From: Halobacteriovorax sp.
GTDB taxonomy: Bacteria > Bdellovibrionota > Bacteriovoracia > Bacteriovoracales > Bacteriovoracaceae
DNA length: 64,000 nucleotides
Assembly (NCBI GenBank): GCA_002720865.1
Contig: PBIO01000014.1
Span: forward strand, 929,793-993,792
Direction: 5' to 3'
The position numbers and the translations under genes were made by a program. Positions 938 to 57,972 of this stretch are shown in pieces. Below the pieces are notes generated by a model. The model was not told the DNA's origin. It saw nothing but the letters and a program-made list of their open reading frames with translations, and made no database searches. Each line of letters opens with the position of its first letter. Position 1 is the first letter of the stretch.

Positions 938-1672
938 ATGAGTAAGGAAAGATTACTGAATAAATCTAGTGAGTGGGGCAAATGTTGCTGCGATAAAAAT
1001 GATGAGTTCCTGCTTAATGCAAGCTCTCCTATATTTGGAGATATCCTACGGATAATTAGAATAACATGGGAGATTGTAAAAGGATTTTATGTATTTAGAA
1101 AGCTTGGCCCTTGTGTGACCGTTTATGGTTCGGCAAGGTTTGGAGAAGAATATGAATATTATGATTATGATTATAGTTTAGGGGAACAATTGGCCAAGGC
1201 AGGTTTTACAGTTTTAACTGGTGGTGGTCCTGGACTTATGGAAGCTGCTAATAGAGGTGCAAAAAATGCAGGAGGTAGGTCAATTGGTTGTAATATTAAA
1301 CTTCCTAAAGAGCAAAAACCAAATCCTTATCTTGATACATTTTTGGAATTTAAATATTTTTTTGCAAGGAAGCTGATACTTGCGAAATATTCGTATGCCT
1401 TTATAGCAGCTCCAGGTGGGTTTGGTACTCTAGATGAAATGTTTGAAGTAGTTACCCTAATCCAAACAGGAAAAATGAAAGCATTCCCAGTTATTCTTTT
1501 AGGAAAAAAATATTGGACGCCATTAATAAATTTTCTTGAATTGACTCTTCTAGAGAATAAGGCGATCAGCAAAATAGACTTGGAACTTATTACAATTACG
1601 GACTCCCCTGTCGAGGCGGTTGAATTAATTAAGAAAAAGGTCACTTCAAAATTTGGTTTGAAATATGTTTAA
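938..1672 (+). CDS. LOG-family protein (nucleoside 5'-monophosphate phosphoribohydrolase-like)
   Basis: 244 residues. The Rossmann-like LOG (lysine decarboxylase-like) fold is shown by GGGPGLMEAANRGA (about residues 97-110) and PGGFGTLDEMFE (about 159-170). This PGGxGTxxE motif holds the catalytic Arg/Glu region that cleaves ribose 5-phosphate from nucleotide monophosphates. The N-terminal 60 residues (with CCC) extend beyond the usual family start and contain a hydrophobic stretch near 35-50. LOG proteins are normally cytoplasmic; why one sits among copper genes is unclear. It is close to the preceding Cys-rich gene and has an AGGA site just before ATG 938. The family call is secure, the substrate unknown. 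Confidence 0.88.
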   Translation: MSKERLLNKSSEWGKCCCDKNDEFLLNASSPIFGDILRIIRITWEIVKGFYVFRKLGPCVTVYGSARFGEEYEYYDYDYSLGEQLAKAGFTVLTGGGPGLMEAANRGAKNAGGRSIGCNIKLPKEQKPNPYLDTFLEFKYFFARKLILAKYSYAFIAAPGGFGTLDEMFEVVTLIQTGKMKAFPVILLGKKYWTPLINFLELTLLENKAISKIDLELITITDSPVEAVELIKKKVTSKFGLKYV

Positions 1673-1738
1673 GAGTATTTGATAAAAAAAATGTTAACTT
1701 GAGTGTTTTTTATTCACTCTTTAAAATTGGAGAAAAAA

Positions 1739-2218
1739 ATGAAAATTAGAAAAGTGTTATTTTTGGTTGTATTAGGAGTTACTTTTGCAACTGTCGTTAA
1801 TGCAGGAATGGGAAAAAACAAAGGACATGGTATGAAGATGGACATGTCTAAAGACAGCTCAGAAGATATGATGGCAAAGCACATGAAAGAAATGGAGGCC
1901 CACATGGCTTCAATGCACAAAACAATGAATGAGATGCATAAAGCAACTAAGCATGAAACAAAAATGGTTTTATGGAGTCAACATGCAAAAGAAATGAAGT
2001 TACATATGGACTCGATGGAAAAAATGATGGGGATGATGAGTATGAAAATGAAGCCGATGGGAATGATGATGAAAGATATGAAAATGGGAGGAATGAAAGA
2101 AATGGGAATGGATAAAATGAAAAATATGATGGGGAAAATGAAAAATATGATGGGCAACATGGAGAATATGATGGAAAAATCATCTGAAATGGAAATGTCT
2201 TCAGACCATAAACATTAG
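1739..2218 (+). CDS. Met/His-rich secreted protein, probable periplasmic copper sponge
   Basis: 159 residues from ATG 1739, which follows GGAGA at 1729-1733; the in-frame ATG at 1703 lacks a site. The signal peptide ends near VVNAG (residues 1-21). The rest is a low-complexity, probably helical chain of Met, Lys, Glu and His with repeats of the type MKNMMG-K-MKNMMG. Thioether-rich chains of this kind bind Cu(I)/Ag(I) in the periplasm in known copper systems (CopC/PcoE-like composition); binding here is inferred. A related Met-rich gene is at 31636-32046. The 3' tail of this gene is duplicated as a relic at 3967-4058. Confidence 0.8.
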   Translation: MKIRKVLFLVVLGVTFATVVNAGMGKNKGHGMKMDMSKDSSEDMMAKHMKEMEAHMASMHKTMNEMHKATKHETKMVLWSQHAKEMKLHMDSMEKMMGMMSMKMKPMGMMMKDMKMGGMKEMGMDKMKNMMGKMKNMMGNMENMMEKSSEMEMSSDHKH

Positions 2219-2254
2219 ATTGATTACTTTATTTTTTTTCAATGAAGGCGTGGT

Positions 2255-2430
2255 ATAAGAGGCAGTTTAATTTTATTATCATTAGGAGTATCGTGCACAA
2301 ATGATACTCCTAATTTGAAAAAAGTCAGTAAAGCTTCTTAGTTGGAAAAAACGCTATATGTATTAAATACTTGGAATTTATACGAGTAACTGGAACTGAT
2401 CATGAGGCAGCTCAATATATAAAGAGTGGG
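2255..2430 (+). pseudogene. Decayed first copy of the DUF411/CopG gene
   Basis: The stretch between the Met-rich gene and the transporter matches the 5' end of the intact DUF411 gene at 4095. Codon by codon, SLILLSLGVSCTNDTP here aligns with SLILAFSLLMGVACTNDSS there. The start codon has become ATA (2255-2257), three bases of the signal region differ, and TAG at 2339-2341 ends the frame after SKAS. Weaker similarity (the shared GATCAT block) may continue to about 2430. The lipobox GVSC is kept. The remaining bases up to 2458 hold nothing else I recognise. No product is expected. Confidence 0.72.
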
Positions 2431-2471
2431 CTCTTAAGAATTTTGGCTTGAAATGCTCAAAAGGATATTAA

Positions 2472-3893
2472 TTGAAAGCATTGCTTAATAGACTCCAATA
2501 TCTACTGGGGCCAATTATTTTTCTAGTCATCCTCTTTTCCCCTTTGGAAATTGAGCAAGACGCACAACAATTTCTAGCAATTTTTTCGTTGGTTATATCA
2601 CTTTGGCTTTTTACAGATGTACCCTTATTTATTTCAGGAATATTGGGTGTAACTCTTTCTGTTATATTGGGCGTAGTTAAACCAATAGAAGCATTTTCTT
2701 CGTTTGCAGATCCAATAATTTTCCTATTTCTTGGTGGCTTTCTTTTGGCCAAGGCATTAGAGATAACTGAGCTTGATAAAAGACTTGCATATAAAGCACT
2801 ATCTCATAACTTTGTCCAAGGTTCGCCTCAAAGGATAGTACTGGCCTTTTTATCTCTTAGTTTTGTTCTTTCCATGTGGATTTCAAATACAGCAGCAGTC
2901 GCTATGCTATTGCCCCTTACCTTTGGTGTTTTAAAAAATCTTAAAGATTCCTATGGTATAGATGATCCACAATTAAGTGAACACCTTTTGCTAGGACTCG
3001 CTTATAGTGCAACAGTAGGAGGTAATGTTACACCAATAGGTTCACCACCAAATATAATAGCAATCGGTCATTTAAAAAACCTAGTTGGTATTGAAATTGG
3101 ATTCTTGCAGTGGATGGTTATGGCATTGCCAATTTCTTTAATTGTTTTTGTTTATATTTATAAGCGCACAGTTTCAAAAATACCGAAAAATACTATATTG
3201 AAAAATATCGAAGAAGTTGAAAACTACAAAGATTTAACTAAAAATCAAAAAAATGTAATAGTAATATTTTCACTCACAGTATTTTTTTGGATAATACCAA
3301 ATTTTTTAACTCTTGCTTTACCTGCTCAGTCTTCTTTTTCTCTTTTTTTAAAAAACAATATTTCAGCACCTATTGTTGGAATATTTTTTGCATCTCTATT
3401 ATTTTTGTTACCTTTTAGTTCTAGTAAAAAAATCTTAACAAGCAAAGACACCTCTCAAATAGATTGGCCAGCTTTGTTATTATTTGGTTCAGGCCTTTCT
3501 CTTGGGAAAATTTTATTTAAAACGGGTCTTTCTGGACATTTTTCTTCTTGGATAATCCAGATGACAGGGGCAACGGGGACACTTTCCCTTATTGTTGGGA
3601 TAGTGTTTTTTACGATATTATTTACTGAATTGGCCTCTAACACAGCATCAGCAAATATCATCATCCCTATTATGATCGCATTTAGTAAAGATACAGGTAC
3701 TAATCCATTGGTGATTATTTTTGTTTTGGCAATTGCCTGTAATTCGGCATATATGTTGCCCGTGGCTACCCCACCCAATATTATTGTTTATGGAACTAAT
3801 AAAATTACGAAATCAACTATGGTTAGTGCAGGATTTGGAATTAATATTTTATGTGCCTTTATACTTTCTTTAATTATTGTTATTTTAGTATAG
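2472..3893 (+). CDS. DASS/SLC13-type sodium:anion symporter
   Basis: 473 residues, beginning with TTG at 2472 behind AAAAGGAT (2459-2466); no ATG fits better. About 11-12 hydrophobic segments are visible. The two family signature pairs are SNTAA (about 138) with GSPPNII (about 190), and SNTASA (about 390) with ATPPNII (about 432). These SNT and TPPN loops bind Na+ and carboxylate in DASS carriers. Substrates in the family are di- and tricarboxylates, sulfate or phosphate; none can be assigned here. The gene lies between two copies of a Met-rich/CopG pair, each half decayed, so it looks like an insertion into, or duplication product of, that pair. Confidence 0.9.
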   Translation: MKALLNRLQYLLGPIIFLVILFSPLEIEQDAQQFLAIFSLVISLWLFTDVPLFISGILGVTLSVILGVVKPIEAFSSFADPIIFLFLGGFLLAKALEITELDKRLAYKALSHNFVQGSPQRIVLAFLSLSFVLSMWISNTAAVAMLLPLTFGVLKNLKDSYGIDDPQLSEHLLLGLAYSATVGGNVTPIGSPPNIIAIGHLKNLVGIEIGFLQWMVMALPISLIVFVYIYKRTVSKIPKNTILKNIEEVENYKDLTKNQKNVIVIFSLTVFFWIIPNFLTLALPAQSSFSLFLKNNISAPIVGIFFASLLFLLPFSSSKKILTSKDTSQIDWPALLLFGSGLSLGKILFKTGLSGHFSSWIIQMTGATGTLSLIVGIVFFTILFTELASNTASANIIIPIMIAFSKDTGTNPLVIIFVLAIACNSAYMLPVATPPNIIVYGTNKITKSTMVSAGFGINILCAFILSLIIVILV

Positions 3894-3966
3894 GGAGATA
3901 TTTTTTTATTCCAGATATTGAGTAAGTATTTAATAACTTTAATTGTAATAAGACATTCAAATAAAA

Positions 3967-4058
3967 ATGAAAAAGTTACAACAGATGATGACTAAAGAAA
4001 CTGAGGAGATAATGGAAAATAATCAAAAGTTAAAAACCTTTCAGATCATAAACATTAG
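3967..4058 (+). pseudogene. Decayed second copy of the Met-rich gene (3' tail)
   Basis: This stretch aligns with the end of the intact Met-rich gene at 1739-2218. The last codons (TTCAGATCATAAACATTAG here, TTCAGACCATAAACATTAG there) and the following GATTACT are nearly the same. A one-base frame change separates the upstream Met/Lys/Glu-rich part (ATG 3967, MKKLQQMMTKETEEIME) from the ancestral SDHKH ending. The 5' part, including the signal peptide, is gone. The upstream stretch 3894-3966 shows nothing recognisable. Confidence 0.68.
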
Positions 4059-4094
4059 AAAGATTACTAAATATTTTCAAAACAAGGACTTGGC

Positions 4095-4565
4095 ATGAAA
4101 AAAAGTTTAATTTTAGCATTTTCATTATTAATGGGAGTAGCATGCACAAATGACTCTTCAACCTCAAAAAAAACAAGTAAAGCATCATACTTACAGCAAG
4201 AGATGGTAGTTTATAAAAACCCCAGCTGTGGATGCTGTACAAAGTGGGTTGATCATATGAGAGAATATGGATTCAAATTAACAGAGAAGCCAATTGATAA
4301 TTTATCAGAAATGAAGGACTCCTTAGGTGTTCCGCAAGATAAAAGAAGTTGTCACACCGCTGTTATGGGGGAATTTGTTTTTGAAGGACATGTTCCTGCC
4401 GCTAGCATCAAAAAATTTCTTGAAGATGAAAATCGTGAAAAAGGTTTAGTTGTTCCTGATATGCCCATGGGAAGTCCCGGAATGGAGTATGGAAAACATA
4501 AAGAGAAGTTCTATGTTTATTCTTTTGATAGTACAGGACACACAAAAATATTTGAAAGATATTAA
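4095..4565 (+). CDS. copG: DUF411/CopG-type periplasmic copper-binding lipoprotein
   Basis: 156 residues. A lipobox (GVAC, Cys17) follows a short signal peptide. The thioredoxin-like DUF411 domain begins at about residue 37 with MVVYKNPSCGCC; Cys45, Cys47 and Cys48 form the CxCC motif. Further conserved parts are SCHTAV, GHVPA, and the C-terminal PxMPxGSPGM. CopG proteins bind a small Cu cluster through these cysteines and help in Cu(I)/Cu(II) handling in copper-resistance clusters; this is known for the family, not shown here. The start ATG 4095 follows AAGGACTTGGC. A decayed copy lies at 2255. The gene lies downstream of the Met-rich relic with which it once formed a pair. Confidence 0.85.
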   Translation: MKKSLILAFSLLMGVACTNDSSTSKKTSKASYLQQEMVVYKNPSCGCCTKWVDHMREYGFKLTEKPIDNLSEMKDSLGVPQDKRSCHTAVMGEFVFEGHVPAASIKKFLEDENREKGLVVPDMPMGSPGMEYGKHKEKFYVYSFDSTGHTKIFERY

Positions 4566-5004
4566 AATGATTAATTATAGAACACAGAACTTTAATACGT
4601 TTTGAATCTGAAAAATTCAGTTTTGTCTAGCTATGATAGCCTCTTTAGTACAGGGCTTGTGGAGGTGGATTAAATGGTCTTATGGGAGGATTGATCGAGT
4701 GACATGTAAAAGAACATGTGATGAAAAATTCTACAGCTCCAAAAAGTCCTCAAGTTTGCTTTTGAACTAATTAAGTTAATAAAAACGTATTGGAAATAAG
4801 GAATATATAAATGTCACATGCAACTCACAAACATAATCATGATTATGTAATCCAAGATAGTAAGATTGGAGCGAATGAAAAGAAAACAATGTTTGTATTG
4901 AGAAAAAATAACGATAAATGGAAAATAATTAATATTCATTGGTCTTAAACTTATTGTTAGTTTGAGTGAATAGGCATACCCTTGAGGGGATACTTGGAGG
5001 TATT
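4566..5004. other. Gene-free stretch with gene fragments
   Basis: About 440 bases without an intact gene. Two coding-like fragments are visible. At 4661-4770 a frame reads GGGLNGLMGGLIE, a TGA at 4700, then HVKEHVMKN and a stop; its origin is unknown. At 4811-4948 an open frame of 45 codons is described separately. ATACCCTTGAGGGGATA at 4976-4992, just before the ribosome site of the next gene, is a poor match to the CsoR-type boxes found further right. I see no RNA gene. Confidence 0.45.
4811..4948 (+). pseudogene. Fragment of an NTF2/SnoaL-like (DUF4440-type) protein
   Basis: A 45-codon frame starts at ATG 4811 without a clear ribosome site and ends with TAA at 4946. Its second half (TMFVLRKNNDKWKIINIHWS) resembles the last beta strands of SnoaL-like NTF2-fold proteins, which end in VLxKxxGKWKIVHxHxS. 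The first 20 residues are His-rich and could be unrelated sequence. The catalytic-pocket half of the fold is missing, so it is most likely the surviving 3' end of a lost gene. The family guess rests on this short ending only. Confidence 0.4.
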
Positions 5005-5433
5005 ATGAAAAGTAAACTGTTAGTTATTTTAATGTCATTATTAATATCAATAAATTTCGCCTTTGCTCATGGTGATGAGCACTCTGAAAAAAAGAAAGAT
5101 CACTCAAGTCATTCGGGACATGATTCAATGGAGAAGAAGGATGATATGATAAAGGGAAATTTGGTGGGTTTGACATGCTTTGTGAAGCACGCCTCAAAAG
5201 GTCCAAGCCATAAAGATTGTTTTAAGGAATGTGCTGAAAAAGGCCTCCCTATAGGGATTTTAACAAAAGATAATAAAATTTATCAAATTTCAGGCGAAGG
5301 ACATGGAGATTTAAAAGAAACTAATAAGAAGTTTTTAAAATATGCAGAAGAGGAAGTTATGGCCAAGGGAAAAGTTTTTACTAGCAATGGTATGAATATG
5401 ATTGTTGTTAAAGGAATAAAGAAGGTAAATTAA
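5005..5433 (+). CDS. His-rich secreted protein of copper operon
   Basis: 142 residues from ATG 5005, behind GGAGG at 4996-5000; the in-frame ATG at 4966 has no site. The signal peptide ends at INFAFA, followed by a His/Asp/Lys-rich segment (HGDEHSEKKKDHSSHSGHD). The C-terminal domain (about 50-142) carries GLTCFVKHASKGPSHKDCFKEC followed by GLPIGILT, a small domain often seen in secreted metal-resistance proteins with paired Cys and His. I infer periplasmic metal binding. It is the first gene of a tight operon (3-base gap, then 16-base gap) with the haem-binding protein and the multicopper oxidase. Confidence 0.75.
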   Translation: MKSKLLVILMSLLISINFAFAHGDEHSEKKKDHSSHSGHDSMEKKDDMIKGNLVGLTCFVKHASKGPSHKDCFKECAEKGLPIGILTKDNKIYQISGEGHGDLKETNKKFLKYAEEEVMAKGKVFTSNGMNMIVVKGIKKVN

Positions 5434-5436
5434 TAA

Positions 5437-5958
5437 ATGTCTTACTTGTTACCTATTTTATTATTAATTTTCGTAAATATTTCTCAAGTCTATGGACATG
5501 GTGGAGAAGATCATGAAAATTCAACACCTAAAAACGATATAGAGCTTGATGCTGATGGCTTTGAAATCGTGTCCACTGCTCCATCTCAAAAAATACTAGT
5601 TAAAATAAACAAAAATTACTTGAGAAACGTAAAAAAGATATTCTCAAATAAATGTCTTTCTTGCCATGGAGTTAATGATTCTCCTCCATGGTATTACAAT
5701 ATTCCTGGGCCAAAACAATTAATGGATTATGATATGAGGGAAGCAAAGAAACATATGAATATGACTAATGACTTTCCTTTTGAAGGGCATGGTAGTCCGG
5801 TGGATGATTTAAATGCACTTACGAAGACTATTCAAAAAGATGACATGCCACCAATGAAGTATAGACTGATGCACTGGGACTCTAAATTAACGGAAGCCGA
5901 AATTAAAGTGATTAATAATTGGATAAAAGAGTCTCAAAAGATTCTAATTCAGAAATAA
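5437..5958 (+). CDS. Haem-binding domain protein with one CxxCH (copy 1)
   Basis: 173 residues with a signal peptide (about 1-20, ending VYGHGG). The central motif is KCLSCHG (Cys73, Cys76, His77), followed by PPWYYNIPG and the DFPF, MPP and LTEAEIKVINNWI blocks of the haem_bd family. It should carry one covalent c-type haem in the periplasm. The protein at 39541-40041 is a clear paralogue with the same PWYY-IPG layout. The position between a His-rich protein and a multicopper oxidase suggests electron exchange with copper chemistry, which is inference. The start ATG 5437 lies 3 bases after the previous stop. Confidence 0.85.
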   Translation: MSYLLPILLLIFVNISQVYGHGGEDHENSTPKNDIELDADGFEIVSTAPSQKILVKINKNYLRNVKKIFSNKCLSCHGVNDSPPWYYNIPGPKQLMDYDMREAKKHMNMTNDFPFEGHGSPVDDLNALTKTIQKDDMPPMKYRLMHWDSKLTEAEIKVINNWIKESQKILIQK

Positions 5959-5974
5959 AATTTGGAGAAATATT

Positions 5975-8134
5975 TTGAAGTTATTTATTTTTATATTTTC
6001 AGTGCTTATAAGCCTTACCAGTTTTGCAAAAAGTTATAATCTGTCAATAAGTGAAAAAATAGTTTCTTTTTCAGGTAAAGAAAAGAAAGGAATGGCAGTA
6101 AATGATTCTATTCCGGGACCTATATTAACATTTACTGAAGGTGACACTGCCGAGATTAATGTAACTAATAATATGAATGTTGAAACCTCTGTTCATTGGC
6201 ATGGACTAATTTTGCCAAATTTTCAAGATGGCGTCCCTTACTTAACAACTCCACCAATCAGGCCCGGTAAAACTTTTACATACCGTTTCCAAATCACTCA
6301 TTCGGGTACATACTGGTATCACTCACATACAGGCTTGCAGGAACAACAAGGTGTTTACGGCTCAATTGTTATAAAACCTAAAAAACAAAAATTAAAATAC
6401 GATAGAGATCTTGTACTCGTACTATCAGACTGGACAGACGAAGATCCTAATGAAGTTTTGCGGACTCTAAAAAGAGGAAGTGATTGGTACTCTATAAAAA
6501 AGAAAACGGCCGTCAGTATAAGTGATGCAATCTCAAATGGTGCTTTCGGAGGTCTTTTAGGGCTTTGGAAGATGAGAATGCCGGGAATAGACATTTCTGA
6601 TGTCTATTATGATGCTTTTTTAATAAATGGAAAAAAAGAGATTCAATACTCTGAATTAAAGGCAGGAGAAAGGGTTCGAGTGAGAGTCATAAATGCAGCG
6701 GCTTCAACTTATTTCTGGACAACAATTGGAGATGCTAATGCAAAGCTGGTTTCCTCTGATGGTGTCGATGTGGTTCCCGTAAAGGCATCGAAGGTATTAC
6801 ATGCAATCGCCGAGACCTATGACTATATTGTTACGATTCCTAAAAATGGAAGTATTGAATTTAGAGCATCTGCCCAAGATGGTTCTGGCCATGTGACAGC
6901 AATACTTGGAAGTGGCAAAATTCGTAAAGCGATGATCGTAAAAGCTCCAGATTATATTGAAAGGACTAAGAATTCGGCTGGCATGAGTCATAGCATGGAT
7001 ATGACTTCTGGCAAGAAAATGGATCATTCAATGCCTGATATGAAAATGACGGACCACTCATCACATAAAATGATGAATCATGATATGAAAAAAGAAAACA
7101 TGAAGATGAAGGAGGGAATGAACTCTAAAGGTTCAGAGTTTAGCTATGATATTTTAAAATCTCCTATCAAAACGAATCTTAAGGATAATAATGTTAAAAA
7201 TATTGAATTAAACCTTACGGGAAACATGTGGCGTTATGTTTGGAGTTTAAATGGAAAAACTCTATCTGAGGTTGATAAGATTAAGATAAGCAGAGGAGAG
7301 GTTATTCGGGTTGTTTTAAATAATAAAACAATGATGCATCATCCGATGCATCTGCACGGACATTTTTTCAGAGTATTAAATAAGAATGGAGAATATTCAC
7401 CTCTTAAACATACTGTTGACGTTGAACCCATGAAGTCAGTAACAATTGAATTTCCAGCAAACGAAACAGGAGATTGGTTCTTTCACTGCCACGTTCTTTA
7501 TCATATGAAAGGTGGAATGGCGCGGATCTTTAGTTATGGAGATAAAAGAGATTCAAGGTTAAATAATTTTGCACTTTCAAACGTTTTAGATATGGATCGA
7601 CATTGGTATACGTGGACTGAGACAAAAGCTGCAAGTCATTATGGATCAATTGAGTTAACCAGCTCAAATACTCGTAATCAATTTAACCTTGGTGCAGAGT
7701 ACGGTTGGAATAAAAACCTTGAAGCAGATATAAGTTATGATCGTTTTTTATCTGATTATTTTAGGGTTTATTTGGGCGCAAATACAGAAAATAAAATAGA
7801 AGAAGAACTTGGTGCTACTGAGACTGTTGGAACATTGGGACTTAAATGGCTCTTGCCTTACTTTATTGATTCAAATTTCAGAATTGACTCCGATTTAAAC
7901 CTCCAACTTTCTTTCGATGTGGATTATTTGCTTTTTTCAAGAGTTGCAATTTTTGGTTACTGGGAAGTTACTAATGATTTTGGTTGGAAAACTAAGTTGC
8001 CAAATAATAATTCTTGGGAAAAAGATTATGTATGGAACTTAGGGCTTGAATATATAGCAACAAAGAATTTATCAATCTTTACAAGTTATGAAAGTCGTTT
8101 TGGAGCAGGAGCTGGGATTTCATATATTTGGTAA
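5975..8134 (+). CDS. CopA-type multicopper oxidase fused to an outer-membrane barrel domain
   Basis: 719 residues, TTG start at 5975 behind GGAGAAA. After the signal peptide come three cupredoxin domains: HWHG (about 74-77) and WYHSHTG (about 110-116), then HHPMHLHGHFF (about 456) and HCHVLYHMKGGM (about 507), the four copper-ligand blocks that oxidise Cu(I) with O2. A Met/His insert (about 335-385, MSHSMDM, MDHSMPDM) resembles that of plasmid CopA/PcoA. Beyond about residue 540 the chain is not oxidase. It alternates polar and aromatic residues (RHWYTWTE, NQFNLGAEYGW, GISYIW at the end), as in CopB/PcoB-type outer-membrane barrels. The oxidase would thus be tethered to the outer membrane. 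A second fusion is at 25373. Confidence 0.88.
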   Translation: MKLFIFIFSVLISLTSFAKSYNLSISEKIVSFSGKEKKGMAVNDSIPGPILTFTEGDTAEINVTNNMNVETSVHWHGLILPNFQDGVPYLTTPPIRPGKTFTYRFQITHSGTYWYHSHTGLQEQQGVYGSIVIKPKKQKLKYDRDLVLVLSDWTDEDPNEVLRTLKRGSDWYSIKKKTAVSISDAISNGAFGGLLGLWKMRMPGIDISDVYYDAFLINGKKEIQYSELKAGERVRVRVINAAASTYFWTTIGDANAKLVSSDGVDVVPVKASKVLHAIAETYDYIVTIPKNGSIEFRASAQDGSGHVTAILGSGKIRKAMIVKAPDYIERTKNSAGMSHSMDMTSGKKMDHSMPDMKMTDHSSHKMMNHDMKKENMKMKEGMNSKGSEFSYDILKSPIKTNLKDNNVKNIELNLTGNMWRYVWSLNGKTLSEVDKIKISRGEVIRVVLNNKTMMHHPMHLHGHFFRVLNKNGEYSPLKHTVDVEPMKSVTIEFPANETGDWFFHCHVLYHMKGGMARIFSYGDKRDSRLNNFALSNVLDMDRHWYTWTETKAASHYGSIELTSSNTRNQFNLGAEYGWNKNLEADISYDRFLSDYFRVYLGANTENKIEEELGATETVGTLGLKWLLPYFIDSNFRIDSDLNLQLSFDVDYLLFSRVAIFGYWEVTNDFGWKTKLPNNNSWEKDYVWNLGLEYIATKNLSIFTSYESRFGAGAGISYIW

Positions 8135-8157: not shown

Positions 8158-8325
8158 CTATCTTTTATGAGTCATTTTATTTGTAAACAACTCTAATGAA
8201 GGTAGACCTTTTTGAACTTTCAAAAGAGCTTCTCGCTTTACCATTTTGTTAATGAGGTGAAGTGACCCAGATCCGAGAGCCACAGAAAAAATTATTGCAA
8301 GAAATATGTCAATTATTGCACGCAT
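8158..8325 (-). CDS. Small membrane peptide of recombinase cassette (copy 1)
   Basis: 55 residues, too short for many gene callers. ATG at 8325 (reverse strand) sits 2 bases beyond the stop of the recombinase-like gene, so the two are tightly coupled. The N-terminal half is one hydrophobic segment (IIDIFLAIIFS..LGSGSLHLI) and the C-terminal half is basic (KMVKREALLKVQKGLPSLE). A second copy at 16281-16445 keeps frame and length with mainly conservative changes, which supports real translation. No family is recognised; a single-pass inner-membrane peptide is likely. Confidence 0.62.
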   Translation of the reverse strand: MRAIIDIFLAIIFSVALGSGSLHLINKMVKREALLKVQKGLPSLELFTNKMTHKR

Positions 8326-8327
8326 GA

Positions 8328-8819
8328 TTAAGCCTTCCTTTTTTGTATTCGTTTAATGATTTCTTTAACTGTGGATGGGTGCCATGATCCACCACGCTTT
8401 GTTGGTATGTTTTTACTATTTAAGTATTTTGAGATTTGAGAAAAGTTTTGCTCTTCATCTAGTAAAGCCAGCATCTTCTCGATGATTTTTTGCTCACCTT
8501 TATGAACTACACGCGTAGTCCCAATGAGCTTTTCACCGTAAGATAGGACAGGTGCTTTTCTATTTGATTTTTCAATTCCTAGAGTCCGTAGGGCATCGCT
8601 TATCGAAGTTCGTGACCAGTTAGTTTTTCTATGGATTTCATAGCTAGAAAGGTCTTTTTCTAAATACAGTTTCCGCAAAAGTCCGCTGTTTTGAATGGGT
8701 TTATTGAAAAAATGAGTAATGATAATAGGAACATACGGTTCGGCGTTACAGAGTTCGTCTAGCAGTTCAGATCGCCCACCAAATTTCGCAAGGGATTTGG
8801 TGGAAACCCACCCCTTCAA
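8328..8819 (-). CDS. Truncated serine-recombinase-like protein (copy 1)
   Basis: 163 residues as an open frame. The C-terminal 50 residues (SQISKYLNSKNIPTKRGGSWHPSTVKEIIKR) match the Recombinase-domain segment of large serine recombinases. A helix-turn-helix-like part (LSSYEIHRKTNWSRTSISDALRTLGI) lies before it. The catalytic resolvase domain with its serine is absent. The copy at 16448-16885 is conserved only from DELCNAEPY onward. The first 20 residues here (from ATG 8819) are read through a CCACCA junction and an inverted repeat, so the real start may be further in, near 8760. A DNA-binding helper or a decayed recombinase are both possible. Confidence 0.62.
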   Translation of the reverse strand: MKGWVSTKSLAKFGGRSELLDELCNAEPYVPIIITHFFNKPIQNSGLLRKLYLEKDLSSYEIHRKTNWSRTSISDALRTLGIEKSNRKAPVLSYGEKLIGTTRVVHKGEQKIIEKMLALLDEEQNFSQISKYLNSKNIPTKRGGSWHPSTVKEIIKRIQKRKA

Positions 8820-8964
8820 TTCTTAAGTAATTTAAATCATTCAATTAGGTTTCAGTAGGTTAGATCAATCACTCCAAGTTCAACGTGTCTGGAAATGTCT
8901 CGGCATTACCCTCGTTGGCTTAGTTGTGGCTTATTTTTGGCTTACACCAAAAAGTTAGTCGTCA
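8776..8964. repeat. 188-bp direct repeat, left copy
   Basis: 8776-8964 aligns without gaps with 21869-22057 (offset 13,093). I count only about four mismatches over the first 180 bases. Both copies start at CCACCA. The left copy forms a perfect inverted repeat at its start: CCACCAAAT, a 10-base loop, then ATTTGGTGG. Inside is an open stretch 8836-8958 without a start codon, coding for a short membrane-like tail (TLVGLVVAYFWLTPKS). The two copies differ there by amino-acid-changing bases, so this is probably a relic. Each copy leads into a paralogous XRE regulator gene. Confidence 0.85.
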
Positions 8965-8969
8965 TCTAA

Positions 8970-9040
8970 AGAGCTACGCAGTGTAATTCAGTATTGCCTA
9001 CACAGCGTAGCCCTATGAATTTAAAGGATACAATACGTAT
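8970..9040 (+). promoter_or_regulatory. Inverted repeats before the XRE gene (probable operators)
   Basis: GCTACGCAGTGTA (8972-8984) and TACACAGCGTAGC (about 8998-9010) are inverted copies with one mismatch. A small GGATAC/GTATCC hairpin follows near 9025-9041. The paralogous gene at 22175 has CTACACTTGTAG and CTACACGTGTAG in the same place. The half-site CTACRC is common to all, which suggests binding sites for the XRE proteins themselves (autoregulation). This is inference from symmetry and position only. Confidence 0.45.
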
Positions 9041-9083
9041 CCAAAAAAGAGCGTTTCAACCATTTATTAAAAGGAGAAGCGTT

Positions 9084-9431
9084 ATGGCAAAGAAGAAGAG
9101 AAGAAGATCAGACACGAAGAAAATAACAAAAGAAGCTCTCATTTTGAGATATATGAGAGAGTCTCGCCATTTATCTATGAGAAAGGCTGCCAAAGTTATT
9201 GGTATAAGCGAAGCTAAAATAAATCATTCAGAGAATGGACGTAGAGACCTAAAGCCAGATTATATTTTGAAGGTAGTCGTTGCATTAGGTTATAGCTATC
9301 AAGACTTTTTAGACTTTCTCAACGATAAAAAAGATGTTCCTGAGCATACACTTTCAGAGTGCATTGAAATTTTAAAACGACTTACCCCTGACAAACTAAA
9401 GACAGTCAGGACGATTTTAGAAAGCTTTTAG
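9084..9431 (+). CDS. XRE-family helix-turn-helix regulator (copy 1)
   Basis: 115 residues from ATG 9084, directly after AAAAGGAGAAG; the in-frame start at 8994 would add 30 unlikely residues. A basic N-terminus (KKKRRRSDTKK) is followed by an XRE-type HTH (about 19-75: LRYMRESRHLSMRKAAKVIGISEAKINHSENGRRDL). A C-terminal helix (LSECIEILKRLTPDKLKTVRTILESF) probably forms the dimer contact. It is about 55% identical by eye to the protein at 22175-22528, with the same upstream palindromes and the same 188-bp repeat. A control gene for the mobile modules is the natural guess. Confidence 0.8.
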   Translation: MAKKKRRRSDTKKITKEALILRYMRESRHLSMRKAAKVIGISEAKINHSENGRRDLKPDYILKVVVALGYSYQDFLDFLNDKKDVPEHTLSECIEILKRLTPDKLKTVRTILESF

Positions 9432-16280: not shown

Positions 16281-16445
16281 CTATTTGGTAGTTAACTTCT
16301 TAGTATACTTTTCCAATGATGGAAGCCCTTTTTGAATTTTAATAAAGGCCTCTTTTTTCACTTTTGCATTAAAAACATAAAGTGATCCAGACCCAAGTAG
16401 TGTGGAGAAAATTATTGCAAGAAATATGTCGATGATTGCACGCAT
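16281..16445 (-). CDS. Small membrane peptide of recombinase cassette (copy 2)
   Basis: 54 residues, ATG at 16445. It has the same layout as the copy at 8158-8325: a hydrophobic N-terminal segment (IIDIFLAIIFSTLLGSGSLY), then a basic tail with IKIQKGLPSLEKY. Residues at hydrophobic and charged positions are kept although the DNA has diverged, which argues for selection at the protein level. It begins 2 bases after the stop of the recombinase-like gene. Confidence 0.62.
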   Translation of the reverse strand: MRAIIDIFLAIIFSTLLGSGSLYVFNAKVKKEAFIKIQKGLPSLEKYTKKLTTK

Positions 16446-16447
16446 GA

Positions 16448-16885
16448 TTAAACCTTCCTTTTTTGTTCACGTTTTATGATTTCTTTTACAGTTGAGGGAT
16501 ACCAAGACCCTCCGCGTTTAGTTGGTATGTTTTTACTATTTAAATATTTTGAGATTTGAGAGAAGCTCTGCCCCTCATTTAATAAGGCCAGCATCTTGTT
16601 GATTACTTTTTGCTCACCCTTGTGAACTACACGCATAGTCCCAATTAGCTTTTCACCATAAGATAGGACAGGTGCTTTTCGGTTTTGTTTTTCAATTCCG
16701 AGTGATCGTAAAGCATCACTTATTGAAGTACGAGACCAATTAGTTTTCTTGTGGATTTCATAGCTAGAAAGGTCTTTTTCTAAGTAGAGCTTCCGCAAAA
16801 GACCGCTGTTTTGAATAGGCTTATTGAAGAAATGAGTAATAAAAATAGCGACATACGGTTCAGCGTTACAGAGTTCGTCTGGCAA
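16448..16885 (-). CDS. Truncated serine-recombinase-like protein (copy 2)
   Basis: 145 residues from a TTG at 16885. It is highly similar to the protein at 8328-8819 from DELCNAEPYV to the end, including the C-terminal SQISKYLNSKNIPTKRGGSW segment of large serine recombinases. Again there is no catalytic domain. The CCACCA at its right end (16896-16901) lies at exactly the same offset (8,120 bases) as in copy 1, so the cassette boundary is precise. DNA beyond that point is unrelated in the two copies. Confidence 0.62.
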   Translation of the reverse strand: MPDELCNAEPYVAIFITHFFNKPIQNSGLLRKLYLEKDLSSYEIHKKTNWSRTSISDALRSLGIEKQNRKAPVLSYGEKLIGTMRVVHKGEQKVINKMLALLNEGQSFSQISKYLNSKNIPTKRGGSWYPSTVKEIIKREQKRKV

Positions 16886-16895
16886 ATCGCAGGGC

Positions 16896-16901
16896 CCACC
16901 A
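16896..16901. other. CCACCA module joint 3
   Basis: Homology between the two recombinase cassettes stops here. CCACCA is at the corresponding place in both (8776-8781 and 16896-16901). Unlike joints 1, 2 and 4, the longer CACCACCT core is not present, so it is a half site or a degenerate site. Confidence 0.45.
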
Positions 16902-21860: not shown

Positions 21861-21874
21861 CACCACCTCCACCA
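21861..21874 (+). other. att-like joint 4 (CACCACCTCCACCA)
   Basis: This is the third full 14-base core. Its last six bases (CCACCA, 21869-21874) are also the first bases of the right copy of the 188-bp repeat. The core therefore marks both the end of the copA-cueR module and the start of the next one. Confidence 0.6.
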
Positions 21875-22057
21875 GATTTCGCAAGGGATTTGGTGGAAAC
21901 CCACCCCTTCAATTCTTAAGTAATTTAAATCATTCAATTAGGTTTCAGTAGGTTAGATCAATCACTCCAAGAACAACGTGTCTGGAAATGTCTCGACATT
22001 ACCCTCGTTGGCTTAGTTGTGGCTTATTTTTGGCTTACACCAAAAAGTTAGTCGTCG
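21869..22057. repeat. 188-bp direct repeat, right copy
   Basis: This is the partner of 8776-8964. The inverted repeat at its left end is slightly damaged (CCACCAGAT against ATTTGGTGG). The short open stretch inside ends at the same stop. Recombination between the two copies would remove about 13.1 kb, from the mer operon to cueR. Confidence 0.85.
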
Positions 22058-22063
22058 TCCAAA

Positions 22064-22135
22064 AGACTACACTTGTAGCTTTAGGGTCTAAAAATAGACC
22101 TATCTCTTTAAAAACAAAGGGACTACACGTGTAGC
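22064..22135 (+). promoter_or_regulatory. CTACAC palindromes before second XRE gene
   Basis: CTACACTTGTAG (about 22067-22078) and the perfect palindrome CTACACGTGTAG (about 22123-22134) flank a small GGTCTA/TAGACC hairpin. They occupy the position of the CTACRC repeats before the XRE gene at 9084. They are probable operators for one or both XRE proteins. Confidence 0.5.
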
Positions 22136-22174
22136 AAACAAAGAGCATCTTTATTAATTTTTATGGAGGTGTTT

Positions 22175-22528
22175 ATGAATACAAAAAAGAAGAAGACTAG
22201 AAGAAGTGACACGAAGATCCTTACAAAGGAGGCGAGCGTTCTTAAATATTTAAGGGAGTCTCGTAAACTTTCCATTAGGAACGCTGCAAAAGTAATTGGT
22301 GTCTCTGATACTAAGGTCAATCATATTGAGAATGGCAGGTGTGACCTTAATCCTCAGTTAACTTTGAAGTTCTTAAATGGATATGGGTACACTTACGAAG
22401 AATTTATGGAGCTTATCAATGGGAAAAAGGCGCTACCGTCTAATGATTATGCTGAGTGTTTAGAAATTTTAAAGAGATTAAGTAAAGATAAATTGAAAAC
22501 TGTTAAGGCTATTTTACAAAGCTTCTGA
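22175..22528 (+). CDS. XRE-family helix-turn-helix regulator (copy 2)
   Basis: 117 residues from ATG 22175, with GGAGG inside the upstream ATGGAGGTG; the in-frame ATG at 22163 is therefore too early. The layout is that of the protein at 9084: basic N-terminus (KKKKTRRSDTK), HTH (LKYLRESRKLSIRNAAKVIGVSDTKVNHIENGRCDL), and C-terminal helix (LEILKRLSKDKLKTVKAILQSF). Both follow a copy of the 188-bp repeat and CTACAC palindromes. It ends at a strong terminator shared with the opposing gene. Confidence 0.8.
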   Translation: MNTKKKKTRRSDTKILTKEASVLKYLRESRKLSIRNAAKVIGVSDTKVNHIENGRCDLNPQLTLKFLNGYGYTYEEFMELINGKKALPSNDYAECLEILKRLSKDKLKTVKAILQSF

Positions 22529-31635: not shown

Positions 31636-32046
31636 ATGATCAAATTAATAAAAGTATTTACAGTATTAACGCTACTAACACTTTCTTATCAATCTTTTTC
31701 ATCAGACAAGAAACACTCAAATATGGCGAAAATGTCAGGGCATATGTCAAAAATGATGAAAACTATGAAGATGATGAAAAAAGAAAAAAATCCGAAGAAA
31801 AAACAACTACTCATGGAAAAGCATATGAAGCAGATGAAGACCCATATGGGAATGATGAAAAATATGATGGGAAAAATGAAAGGAATGATGAAAGAGCATA
31901 AGGGCATGGAAATGATGGAAAACATGGAAGGCATGATGGGAAATATGCAAAACATGATGGGTAAGAATATGGCCATGTGTACGGGGAATACTATGAATAA
32001 AAAAGTTAAGGCTAAGCAAGAGGATCACTCTTCGCATAATCACTAA
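31636..32046 (+). CDS. Met-rich secreted protein (copper sponge type)
   Basis: 136 residues from ATG 31636 (site AAAGGAG); the frame from 31579 crosses the operator. After the signal peptide the chain is mainly Met, Lys and Gly with MMKNMMGKMKGMM-like repeats and one Cys near the end (AMCTGN), and ends in HSSHNH. It is similar in build to the protein at 1739. It precedes the copper ATPase by 21 bases, so it may receive Cu(I) in the periplasm. Confidence 0.8.
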   Translation: MIKLIKVFTVLTLLTLSYQSFSSDKKHSNMAKMSGHMSKMMKTMKMMKKEKNPKKKQLLMEKHMKQMKTHMGMMKNMMGKMKGMMKEHKGMEMMENMEGMMGNMQNMMGKNMAMCTGNTMNKKVKAKQEDHSSHNH

Positions 32047-45600: not shown

Positions 45601-45768
45601 CTCGTCCCCGTTATGTGGGCAACTACGACAGGTAGCGAAGTAATGAAGCCGATGGCCATTCCAACACTTGGTGGAATGTTAGTTGAATTAATCACATTAT
45701 TTATAGTTCCTGTAACCTTTAGCTATTTTGAACAAAGACGAATTGAACAAGGAGAAAGTCATGCTTGA
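42652..45768 (+). CDS. cusA: CusA-type Cu(I)/Ag(I) RND pump
   Basis: 1038 residues with twelve membrane helices and two large periplasmic loops. The helix-4 motif IAIGSMVDMGIIMTEN (about 398-413) is that of the monovalent (Cu/Ag, HME4) subgroup, whereas the other pump in this window (58769) has the divalent type. ARIDAIPDIGENQQIVFTEW near residue 33-52 is family-typical. It uses the proton gradient to push copper from periplasm or cytoplasm through the duct. The stop overlaps the next gene's start by 8 bases. Confidence 0.93.
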   Translation: MIQKLIEASIRNRVLVVILFVLIALLAVFSLKTARIDAIPDIGENQQIVFTEWPGRSPKDIEEQVTYPMSILLQGIPGVKNIRGISAFGFSTIYVIFKDDIDFYWSRSRVLEKLSTAGSALPAGVVPQMGPDATGLGQIFWYTVENDENSIKPKSLAELRSIQDFYVRYLLQGVDGVSEVASVGGFVKEYQIDVDPKKLFAYNIHFNKLIKSIQNSNIDVGAEVVEDGDREFIVRGKGFFKSLSDIENVVLAIKNKTPIRVKDVATVGFGPGFRRGALDKNGSEAVGGVVTMRFGENPKQVIDKVKERLKVIERGLPKGVKVVSFYDRTELIENTIGTVYSALSEEIIITVFVILLFLLHFQSSILVTLTLPFGVGISFILMKLIGVDSNVMSLSGMVIAIGSMVDMGIIMTENIYSHLSEKPNVSKKERIEIIIKSAREVGPAILTAVMTTIVTFLPVFGLEGSEGKLFGPLAWAKTLAMFGSVVVAIVLVPALSVFLLKGKLKPIENNKVSFLIIKSYRPALNWVLKNRKKFLIAPTILLILGAFALSNLGKEFMPSLNEGDILYMPTTTPDISMTKARELLAYTDKVLKEHPLVEYSVGKLGRANTAIDPAPVAMFETVIKLIPKEKWPKGKTIYEIMQDLDQAVQVPGLVNSWDFPIQTRIGMISTGIKTQIGIKIFGSDLKELESLAGKIGKEVEKIKGAYGVYAEQITGKPYIEFDIDRIAASRYGINTGTVNKILQTAVGGMPIGQFYDGRERYPIRVRYKKELRDRIDELKKVLVPSPLGQHIPLEQLAHIKVVTGPAAIQSENGLLRSVVLLNVKGRDLIGFVEEAKKHIGKTVELPKGYSIVWAGQYENQVRATNRLKMLVPIALIINLVIIFLGIKNLRNSAIIFSAVPIAMAGGLILLWIGGFNTSVAVWVGFIALFGIAVDDGVVMMTYLQESIKKHTPKNWEELKGCIVEAGSRRIRPLVMTTTTTVVALVPVMWATTTGSEVMKPMAIPTLGGMLVELITLFIVPVTFSYFEQRRIEQGESHA

Positions 45769-46105
45769 AAAATTATTTATTCTCAGTATCCCTTTTATAT
45801 TAGCTTCGTGTGCTTCTACCAACCACAAGTATATGCGGGGATCAGTTGCTATGAAATTAGATAAGAAGACTGCACATGTTTGTCTTGGTGATAATGAAGT
45901 TAAAAATGGAGATAAAATATTGTTTTACTACAATGATTGTGAACAAATTGACCCAGAAGTGGGAGGTCTAAAAGGTTTGTGTACTCTAAAGGAGCTGGGA
46001 ACAGGAGAAGTCACAAAAGTTCATAATAGCCACTACTCAACAGTGAAAACTGATGGTTCGTTTAGCTTTAAGGAAGGAACCCTAGTTCAAAGAGAGAAAC
46101 TGTAA
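45761..46105 (+). CDS. Small lipoprotein of the MRGSVA family (copy 2 of 3)
   Basis: 114 residues from ATG 45761 (site AAGGAGAAAG) inside the end of cusA. Lipobox LASC is followed by YMRGSVAMKLDKKTAHVCLG, DNEVKNGDKI, two Cys, and the ending HNSHYSTVKTDGSFSFKEGTLV. It is nearer to the copy at 51442 than to that at 294. In all three the order is lipobox, MRGSVA, VCLG, HYS-VKT. Coupling with the Cus pump makes a role in copper handling likely. Confidence 0.78.
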   Translation: MLEKLFILSIPFILASCASTNHKYMRGSVAMKLDKKTAHVCLGDNEVKNGDKILFYYNDCEQIDPEVGGLKGLCTLKELGTGEVTKVHNSHYSTVKTDGSFSFKEGTLVQREKL

Positions 46106-48272: not shown

Positions 48273-49799
48273 ATGAGATCCGTAATGTGTGCACTTATCT
48301 TTAGCCTACTTATTAGTTCTAACTTGTATGCTAGTGATATTTCAACAATCGAAGTGAAAGTTAAAAGACTTCAAAAAGAACAAGATTCTGGTGTGGCAGA
48401 TATTTTTTTTTCATTGTCGAAAGAGTTCCAAGCTGTTTCGAGAAAATTTCATAAGTCGGTAGAGAAAGATATATCAAATAATACAAATCTAACTGGGGAT
48501 CAATTAACATCCCTACACAGGCTAGTTTCTAGCTATATTACGTTGAGTTATCAAATATTTAAGAAATCAGAAAGTACCCATAACTTAGAAACGAAAACCC
48601 TACTTCGATTTGAGATTCTTCGTCTCGCAGGAAATACATACTTACCTTTATTCTTTAAGAAAAAGTTAAGGCTGCTACTTAATGCTGAGGACATGGCCTT
48701 TAATATATCTAAAGAAGAGCTAAGAAAGCATTTATTAGTAATATTATCTTCTTCGGAAATTGATAAGAATAAGGCCTTGCTTGAGAAATTAAAAAAAGTG
48801 CTTCCAGAGTATGATTATAGAAAAATTGATAACCATATTGTTACTAAAAAATTAAATGTGCATAGGTATTTTTCTAATCTTCGTAGGATAATTGAAAGAA
48901 CTAAGTTTTCAGACTTTGGTGCCAGATCGACCCAATTCTTGGTCCACCATTTGAGTGGAGCATTTGGAAATAGTGCAGGTGCAATTAAATGGCGAAAAGG
49001 ATATCTTTATAACAATGAAAAAATCATTAAGGAGTTACGAGATAACTTGAAACCTCTTGATATCATAACTGAAAAAGCAGGTTTTGCTTTGACTGATACT
49101 TTTATCCCAGGGCACTTTGGTCATAATGCAATTTGGCTCGGAGGCAAAGATGAACTTATAAAACTGGGATTGTGGGATAATCTTATTCCTGATCATATAA
49201 AAAAGGGGATTGAAGAAGGTAAGCAAATCATTGAAACAGACCGAAGCGGAACACACTTAAAATCTCTTGAAGATTTTATGAATGTAGATGATTTCGCTAT
49301 ATTAAGACTAGGCGATAAAACTCTCGGGAAAAAACTATTTGAAAATGTTTACAAGGTAGCATTTTCACAACTCGGAAAAACGTATGATTTCAATTTTGAC
49401 GTCGAGACAACAGATAAATTGGTTTGTTCTGAACTTTTATATCAGAGTTTTGGAATGATAAATTGGCCGACGAGGAAATACCTTGGAAGAACCACTATTT
49501 CACCGGACAATATTGGCTCATTACTATTTTATGAAGACTCACCCTTAGAGCTAGTACAGTACTTTTCAGGGAGCCCACAGGGTTATATATCGAAAACTTT
49601 TGATGACCTTGCATCAGACATAGGGTTATTAAAAAAAGGCGAGAAGTTCTTTGAGAAGATTGAAACTTGTAAAGTTAGAAAAATAAAAAAGCCAGGACCT
49701 AGAAGAAGAGGTTCCCGTAGTTCAGACTTTATAAATGTTAAATCTTGTAAAAAGAATCTGAGAAACCTTCGTTACACTGAGAGAGAAATAGTACATTAA
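48273..49799 (+). CDS. YiiX/NlpC-P60-like secreted enzyme (copy 1)
   Basis: 508 residues with a signal peptide (ending NLYAS). A helical N-terminal half (about 30-230) precedes a papain-like domain of the YiiX type. AGFALTDTFIPGHFGHNAIWLG (about 270-291) and KLVCSELLYQSFG (about 386-398) carry His and Cys of the likely active pair, and PLELVQYF follows. Such enzymes act on lipids or acylated molecules. The C-terminal basic tail is rich in Arg/Lys. The paralogue at 56461 keeps all these motifs. The role next to copper genes is unknown. Confidence 0.75.
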   Translation: MRSVMCALIFSLLISSNLYASDISTIEVKVKRLQKEQDSGVADIFFSLSKEFQAVSRKFHKSVEKDISNNTNLTGDQLTSLHRLVSSYITLSYQIFKKSESTHNLETKTLLRFEILRLAGNTYLPLFFKKKLRLLLNAEDMAFNISKEELRKHLLVILSSSEIDKNKALLEKLKKVLPEYDYRKIDNHIVTKKLNVHRYFSNLRRIIERTKFSDFGARSTQFLVHHLSGAFGNSAGAIKWRKGYLYNNEKIIKELRDNLKPLDIITEKAGFALTDTFIPGHFGHNAIWLGGKDELIKLGLWDNLIPDHIKKGIEEGKQIIETDRSGTHLKSLEDFMNVDDFAILRLGDKTLGKKLFENVYKVAFSQLGKTYDFNFDVETTDKLVCSELLYQSFGMINWPTRKYLGRTTISPDNIGSLLFYEDSPLELVQYFSGSPQGYISKTFDDLASDIGLLKKGEKFFEKIETCKVRKIKKPGPRRRGSRSSDFINVKSCKKNLRNLRYTEREIVH

Positions 49800-51441: not shown

Positions 51442-51783
51442 ATGAAAAGCTTAATAGCAATTACACTTGCAGTACTTATTCTAAATGGTTGTGCGCATAG
51501 TTTTATGCGAGGAACAGTCGCAATGAAGATGGATAAAAAGACGGCACATGTTTGCCTTGGTAATAATGATGTAAAGGTCGGAGATAAAATAGATTTTTTC
51601 CATAACCTTTGTAGCGGCGCTAATGCTGGTGGGAAGGAAGAAGCAGGAGATGTTAGATCTTGTGAAATGAAGATATTAGGAACCGGAACAGTCACTAAGC
51701 TTCTAAATGCTCATTACTCTGAAGTTAAAACAGATAGTAACTTTAAGCTAACCGAAGGGACCATGGTTCAAAAAAGAAGATAG
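51442..51783 (+). CDS. Small lipoprotein of the MRGSVA family (copy 3 of 3)
   Basis: 113 residues (site AAAAGGAG). Lipobox LNGC is followed by FMRGTVAMKMDKKTAHVCLG and NNDVKVGDKI, one Gly-rich loop (SGANAGGKEEAG) and the family ending NAHYSEVKTDSNFKLTEGTMV. Very close to the copy at 45761 in the core, different in the middle loop. It is the first gene of an operon with the Tat-exported multicopper oxidase (4-base gap), under CsoR-type box 7. Confidence 0.78.
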   Translation: MKSLIAITLAVLILNGCAHSFMRGTVAMKMDKKTAHVCLGNNDVKVGDKIDFFHNLCSGANAGGKEEAGDVRSCEMKILGTGTVTKLLNAHYSEVKTDSNFKLTEGTMVQKRR

Positions 51784-56460: not shown

Positions 56461-57972
56461 ATGAAATATTTTTTATTAGTTATTCTGGTTCTTTTAACTC
56501 AGGGCTTCGCTTTAGGTGACGATGTAATCAAGTTACAATCCGAAATAGACAGTGAAATGGGTAAGAAGGTACTTGCTGTAGAAAAGGCTCACGAGTTAAC
56601 TAAAAAATTTCGAGAAGTGGCCAACCCATTTCACGAATCGCTTATTCAAGATTTAAAAGAAGAGAAACCATTAACTGGGGCACAACTGACCTCTATGCAT
56701 GGACTTGTGTCATCATTTATTTCCTTAGCTTACAGAATTGAGCGAGAGTACGAACAAAGAGAAGATGGATTCGTTAAGCTTTTCTATGGTGTAACTCTTT
56801 TGGAGTTAATTAGAAATACATATATAAAAGCTTTCCGTAATAAAAAGCTAAGAGTACTTTTAAACGATAAAGATTCATCTTTTGGAATAGAAAAGAAAGA
56901 ATTGAAAAAATACCTATTAAACGTTTTAAGTAGGAAATTCCTTAGTGAAGTCGAGTCACTTTACATCTCGTATAAGAGTGAGGCGGGAGAGAAGTTAGAA
57001 AAAGCTTGGAATGGTCATTCTAGGGTTATTGAGAAGATTCGCAATAATGAATTTTTGAAATTTAGGAAGTTTATTTTAGATTCGACTGCTTCTGATTGGG
57101 GGAGAGAATTCTCAAAGTTTCTTCTTCACCATGTTAGTGGAGCATTTGGAAATAGTGCAGGATCTATTAAGTGGAGAAGGGGTTACCTTGAAAATAACTT
57201 TAAAGTGATTAGAGATATAAAGCTAAAGATACAACCTCTTGACGTAATTACAGAAAAAGCAGGCTTTGCCTTAACAGACACATTTATTCCAGGTCACTTC
57301 GGTCATAATGCGATTTGGTTGGGATATGAAAGTGAGCTTATTGAGATGGGTATTTGGAACACACTTCCATCTTCAGTACAAAAAGGTATACGACAGGGGA
57401 AAAATATTTTAGAGACGGATAGATCAGGCACACATTTAAAGTCACTGGAAGATTTTATGAATGTCGACGAATTCGCTATACTACGATTCAAAGAAGGAAT
57501 TATTAAAGAAGAACAAATTGAAAAAATCTATAAAGTAGCGGTATCTCAGTTAGGGAAAAAGTACGACTTTAACTTTGATGTCGAAACAACTGATCGATTA
57601 GTTTGCTCTGAGTTGCTATACCAAAGTTTTGGGAAAATAAACTGGCCGACGGAAAAGTATTTAGGAAGAACGACAATTTCACCTGATAATGTTGGATCTC
57701 TAATTCTTTATAATAACTCACCACTAGAGATGATATATTTTGTAGCAGGTTCCGAATCTGGTCTATATGAAAAGGATATTTTTGATTTTGCTAACGATAT
57801 TGGATTTAAAACGACTTCTGAGGGATTCTTAAAACCTAGAAAGGTTTGTACAGTAAGAACAATAAAAAGACCCGGTGGATTCAGGCAGAGAGGCACTTCA
57901 AGAAAAAGAGAAACAATAAATATCAAAGATTGCGAGACAGTATTTGACGAATTGAATTATGAGACTCGCTGA
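56461..57972 (+). CDS. YiiX/NlpC-P60-like secreted enzyme (copy 2)
   Basis: 503 residues, signal peptide ending FALGD. It matches the protein at 48273 along the whole length: helical N-half, AGFALTDTFIPGHFGHNAIWLG, DRSGTHLKSLEDFMNVDEFAILR, RLVCSELLYQSFG, YLGRTTISPDN, and an Arg/Lys-rich C-terminus with KPGGFRQRGTSRKR. The two genes bracket the 49.9-56.3 kb block. The family is papain-like with likely Cys and His active residues; substrate unknown. Confidence 0.75.
   Translation: MKYFLLVILVLLTQGFALGDDVIKLQSEIDSEMGKKVLAVEKAHELTKKFREVANPFHESLIQDLKEEKPLTGAQLTSMHGLVSSFISLAYRIEREYEQREDGFVKLFYGVTLLELIRNTYIKAFRNKKLRVLLNDKDSSFGIEKKELKKYLLNVLSRKFLSEVESLYISYKSEAGEKLEKAWNGHSRVIEKIRNNEFLKFRKFILDSTASDWGREFSKFLLHHVSGAFGNSAGSIKWRRGYLENNFKVIRDIKLKIQPLDVITEKAGFALTDTFIPGHFGHNAIWLGYESELIEMGIWNTLPSSVQKGIRQGKNILETDRSGTHLKSLEDFMNVDEFAILRFKEGIIKEEQIEKIYKVAVSQLGKKYDFNFDVETTDRLVCSELLYQSFGKINWPTEKYLGRTTISPDNVGSLILYNNSPLEMIYFVAGSESGLYEKDIFDFANDIGFKTTSEGFLKPRKVCTVRTIKRPGGFRQRGTSRKRETINIKDCETVFDELNYETR

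Follow-up and report, generated by a model that had tools for sequence, protein, structure and literature searches.

Partial tandem duplications across a gene junction leave a recognizable set of remnants in bacterial genomes: repeats in direct orientation whose breakpoints fall within genes, inner copies that are truncated and outer copies that are intact. The locus described here shares these features, but differs in that a transporter gene lies between the copies and one remnant is conserved across genera beyond the level of synonymous sites. Its downstream gene is a full member of the CopG/DUF411 family of periplasmic copper proteins (PF04214; structures 6wis and 6wje), with a CGCC motif and a multicopper oxidase gene nearby; what sets it apart from that family is a lipoprotein-like leader, which is duplicated upstream as a relic. 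The transporter is a full-length member of the DASS/SLC13 anion transporters (PF00939), whose nearest relatives (52-56% identical) stand in unrelated contexts, whereas here the gene is placed between two junction copies. RNA elements of 3′ untranslated and intercistronic regions provide a further likeness, namely conserved non-coding sequence with stable hairpins past a stop codon; in contrast to those elements, the segment at this locus comes from a dead coding leader and has no Rfam match. The listings returned by a literature search contained no description of this locus.

Gene order in a metal-resistance region

The window, i.e., the whole stretch of 64,000 nucleotides analysed here, is G000:C14:929793-993792 from a Halobacteriovorax sp. 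assembly of 4.9 Mb. It is rich in metal genes, including two multicopper oxidases, two P-type ATPases, RND pumps and a second Met-rich protein (several of them named from their translations). The features at and around the junction, in window coordinates, are:

1739-2218, + strand: Met-rich secreted protein gene, intact (open reading frame of 159 aa with signal peptide; Met/His/Lys-rich)
2135-2368, + strand: repeat copy 1, consisting of Met-rich tail, spacer and CopG leader relic; aligns with 3964-4219
2219-2477, + strand: non-coding segment (relic plus ~135 nt), ending just past the first codons of the transporter
2255-2341, + strand: CopG leader relic, with ATA (2255) as start, 28 codons and a TAG stop (2339-2341); CopG core absent
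2281-2314, + strand: strong hairpin in the relic
2368-2388, + strand: second, weaker hairpin
2472-3893, + strand: DASS/SLC13-type transporter (473 aa, TTG start, AAAAGGA ribosome-binding site)
3964-4058, + strand: frameshifted relic of the Met-rich tail, with which repeat copy 2 (3964-4219) opens
4095-4565, + strand: CopG/DUF411 gene, intact (lipoprotein-like leader, CGCC motif)
5005-8134, + strand: genes 3′ of CopG, encoding a small secreted protein (p5005), a haem-binding protein (p5437) and a multicopper oxidase

This is the order given in the preliminary description (intact Met-rich gene, CopG relic, transporter, relic of the Met-rich tail, intact CopG), and the open reading frames, the PF00939 and PF04214 matches and the alignment of the two copies bear it out, together with the ATA start and early stop that it had reported for the CopG relic.

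The Met-rich protein matched no Pfam family; from its composition and the neighbouring copper genes, we presume a periplasmic metal-binding protein with a role in copper handling. The transporter matches PF00939 (E = 8e-53; residues 10-469, most of the protein) and PF03600 (E = 6e-53). The intact CopG gene is the only DUF411 gene in the whole window genome. It scores 77.6 bits against PF04214 (E = 6e-22), well over the curated cut-off of 27, and matches the solved DUF411 structures at E = 7e-26 (6wis: 6.9e-26, residues 39-156). According to work on DUF411 proteins, CopG binds copper via its cysteine motif. The family and the surrounding copper genes suggest that this CopG is a periplasmic thiol/copper protein.

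The Met-rich tail relic also opens a frame of 43 codons (3967-4098), the TGA of which overlaps the CopG ATG (ATGA). Such a frame could couple translation to CopG; a clear ribosome-binding site is absent.

The demonstrable duplicated unit: a junction of ~240 bp

Local alignment of 2135-2368 with 3964-4219 gave a score of 148, compared with at most 80 in 500 dinucleotide-preserving shuffles and at most 57 in 154 comparisons with other segments of the window. Chance similarity of AT-rich DNA is thereby ruled out as the cause of the repeat, and the preliminary observation of a match between the two stretches holds. Ungapped blocks reach 70% identity (2176-2275 against 4016-4115) and 73% (2271-2343 against 4120-4192). 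Translated, the relic reads IRGSLILLSLGVSCTNDTPNLKKVSKAS followed by a stop, against MKKSLILAFSLLMGVACTNDSSTSKKTSKASY in the leader of intact CopG. The second Met-rich copy comprises only the 3′ end of the gene and is, as described before, shifted in frame, here by a one-base indel near 4015. A multicopy mobile element was rejected within the window genome, where the leader of CopG is the sole other clear match of the repeat.

The two copies lie in direct orientation on either side of the transporter, and their homology covers ~85 bases of the Met-rich tail, continues through the spacer and takes in the CopG leader as far as the metal-binding core, stopping at about CopG codon 42, where the conserved core starts. 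The relic (2255-2341) lacks the DUF411 core, and no core homology was detected beyond it (2345-2480 against 4190-4600, p = 0.93; 2369-2480 against 4210-4600, p = 0.77). Likewise, no homology to the 5′ part of the Met-rich gene precedes the second copy (1675-2134 against 3893-3963, p = 0.70), and neither a second transporter remnant nor any transporter-like sequence 3′ of CopG was found. The demonstrable duplicated unit is thus the junction of ~240 bp, and the gene pair itself is not demonstrably duplicated.

That homology halts inside both genes, with the missing parts leaving no trace, counts in favour of a junction duplication around the transporter, in which the outer genes are intact and the inner ones truncated by geometry. 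We give this reading about an even chance of being correct. In the ancestor, the Met-rich gene would have been followed directly by CopG, as the two junction copies imply. A segment of ~240 bp across this junction would then have been duplicated, with breakpoints inside both genes, and the transporter would have come to lie between the copies in the same event or later. The duplication alone would yield an intact Met-rich gene with a truncated CopG upstream and a truncated Met-rich gene with an intact CopG downstream; two separate losses are therefore not needed. If a single junction duplication did make the reciprocal pattern, the locus is a cautionary case in which apparent complementary gene loss is a by-product of breakpoint positions. 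The single ancestral junction is deduced rather than seen, as no genome with it was found among 369 of the phylum, and at ~30% divergence, deletion could have removed every sign of a full second pair.

The preliminary description had proposed one tandem duplication of the pair, with the transporter between the copies, followed by loss of opposite members. A duplication that flanks the transporter, with each gene present once intact and once as a dead copy, stands; what is doubled is only the junction, and remnants of the supposedly lost parts are lacking. We consider duplication of the whole pair, with opposite members later decayed or deleted, unlikely though worth keeping in view. It accords with the two direct junction copies around the transporter and with two features that set CopG apart from the shared relic state, in-frame gaps and an excess of changes at third codon positions (6/4/11, p = 0.036). 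The gaps and the excess do not separate the two models, because the lineage of intact CopG alone could produce both. Against duplication of the whole pair stand the absence of any surviving homology to the lost parts and the need for two independent losses that both, by coincidence, spared the outer members; moreover, an intact or doubled pair was found in no genome.

Relatives of the locus

CopG is present in 12 of the 369 phylum genomes, counting that of the window. A similarity search of nine of these, fetched with their flanks and excluding the window, found no Met-rich gene upstream of CopG. The expectation, raised with the proposal of pair duplication, that relatives without the transporter would carry a single intact pair was thus disappointed: in no case did a Met-rich gene precede one of the CopG genes examined. 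Elsewhere, CopG differs both in its leader and in the genes upstream of it. The Met-rich gene may thus have had an ancestral partner other than CopG, which weighs against the junction duplication. In G113, a genome of another genus, the three genes that come after CopG in the window (p5005, p5437 and the multicopper oxidase) come after it as well, and neither the Met-rich gene nor the transporter precedes it. Two genomes of the window's own genus lack both the Met-rich gene and CopG. Plasmids, phages and viral contigs searched for the junction yielded nothing, as did a pattern scan for CopG in genome and viral contigs. A junction-motif match at L066 was dismissed as chance, since it lies inside an unrelated gene.

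The patchiness of the metal region (neither gene in the two same-genus genomes), the resemblance of the CopG operon to that of G113 and the ~30% divergence between the copies, which makes them old, would suit a history in which horizontal transfer of a metal-resistance region juxtaposed two diverged Met-rich-CopG loci, each of which then lost one member. A donor-like junction locus was encountered in none of the genomes, plasmids, phages or viral contigs, and we regard this history as very improbable.

The Met-rich gene has one close ortholog (78-79% identical), in Halobacteriovoraceae bacterium SAT2788 (G029; contig G029:C15 = PAMZ01000011.1; assembly ~88% complete), which belongs to the same family as the window genome and to another genus. 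There, glutamate dehydrogenase, a Cys-rich lipoprotein and the Met-rich gene stand in the window's order, and the relic comes next, again with that TAG and without an ATG. Synteny upstream of the Met-rich gene (926193-930068 of G000, 71% nucleotide identity) makes the locus orthologous by position. The shared stop and missing ATG indicate that, barring a later exchange, the upstream CopG stub was already dead when the copies in the window and G029 parted. The two stubs are about equally distant from intact CopG (26/90 and 23/88 sites), which places the duplication before that separation. This sharing of the Met-rich gene and its stub, in a segment that reaches the start codon of the transporter, also speaks for the junction duplication. 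G029 departs from the window just after the TTG of the transporter, at a repeat that also begins contig C2, so that the far side is not comparable. No match to the transporter was reported in this assembly, in which the contig breaks off at the repeat.

Two G029 contigs end in the same ~93 bp (L058 10530-10623 and L089 1-93), which begins where similarity to the window ends; this shared sequence is probably a mobile repeat inserted there.

G029 contains the Met-rich gene and the relic and, in its ~88% complete assembly, gave no CopG match. Together with the varied leaders and upstream genes of CopG relatives and the end of repeat homology right at the start of the conserved core, this would fit a reversed direction of events, in which copy 1 (the Met-rich end with a small leader of lipoprotein type) came first and was then copied to a position before the CopG core, so that the gene acquired a new leader and a new upstream region. 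Such a leader has no known source gene, the relic being without a start in both genomes and frameshifted in G029, and the Met-rich tail before CopG has no evident use there; we therefore hold this course to be distinctly unlikely.

A dead leader conserved across two genera

Under a junction duplication around the transporter, the reciprocal look of the locus is ordinary, and the part worth following is the conservation of the stub across genera. Between the window and G029, 218 of 255 positions of segment 2219-2477 are identical (85.5%), compared with 109 of 196 (55.6%) in the local synonymous pool (Fisher p = 2e-12; p = 8e-5 against the synonymous sites of the Met-rich gene). At synonymous sites, the five syntenic orthologs that lie upstream of the Met-rich gene are 38-56% identical, and the first 120 codons of the Met-rich gene itself 57% (34/60); in the last 41 codons of that gene, 18 of 21 synonymous sites match. 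The tract of high identity thus seems to begin inside the Met-rich gene, near 2126, and to end just past the TTG start of the transporter. Like a neutral pseudogene, the relic and the sequence downstream of it have no ATG in either genome, a common TAG and frame-breaking indels (2, 1 and 1 nt within 2219-2477); unlike one, they do not diverge as synonymous sites do. Coding in another frame of 2345-2471 was rejected, as all six frames are about equally conserved (62-68%), and in a frame of 26 codons at 2371-2451 the changes, read by eye, fall mostly at second positions.

Part of the segment folds stably. The hairpin at 2281-2314 reaches -19.2 kcal/mol in the relic, whereas the leader of intact CopG reaches -5.9 kcal/mol and does not form it; among 2367 segments of 54 nt taken from the window, 4 are as stable. 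Its closing pair is A-U in the window and U-A in G029, and base pairs changed on both sides number two in this comparison of only two sequences. When the same number of changes was placed at random, 6.9% and 2.0% of trials left the two hairpins equally stable, so that both are preserved better than under chance placement. Folded as a whole, the segment has only a mild advantage over shuffles (z = -1.45 and -1.90). No Rfam match was obtained in 1600-5000 up to E = 1, and a covariance model of the relic found no third copy in 129 genomes of the family. An intrinsic terminator at the strong hairpin was considered and discarded: the scan returned none, and a T run after the hairpin is absent.

The conserved tract is either the product of recent recombination or an RNA or DNA element under selection, and two sequences cannot decide between the two. 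Under recombination, the Met-rich tail should have diverged at its synonymous sites about as much as the non-coding part has, and the counts agree (3/21 and 37/255). Selection is suggested by the very stable relic hairpin that intact CopG lacks, by its closing pair changed on both sides and by the second hairpin (2368-2388), which is kept in both genomes. The CopG stub has, since its death, stayed conserved as non-coding, hairpin-bearing DNA between the Met-rich gene and the transporter. Tentatively, and with more doubt than confidence, we suggest from the sequence that the dead CopG leader and what follows it may act as a functional intercistronic RNA, with hairpins 2281-2314 and 2368-2388, that would control either the Met-rich message at its end or the transporter at its start and be selected across two genera while coding nothing. 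If so, the stub would make a readable example of how a dead coding leader can be put to new use, as a regulatory hairpin, in a copper-resistance region.

Further repeats in the window

Another duplicated segment with an insert was seen in the same window. A contiguous block of recombinase fragment plus HTH (8192-9272) has split relatives, the first half at 16312-16901 (82%) and the second at 21869-22369 (75%), with ~5 kb between them that carry a P-type ATPase and a MerR-type regulator. The second Met-rich secreted protein (31636-32046) lies directly before a P-type ATPase, in an arrangement similar to one in G113. A small lipoprotein of MRGSVA type has three paralogs across the metal region (294-671, 45728-46105 and 51442-51783; no Pfam match for the two tested), and in G113, G125 and G115 relatives of it lie close to genes of the Met-rich or CopG kind. 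Finally, two paralogs of ~505 aa (48273-49799 and 56461-57972) lie ~8 kb apart and share 70% DNA identity over 600 bp; the protein encoded at 48273-49799 contains a C92 peptidase (YiiX-like) domain.
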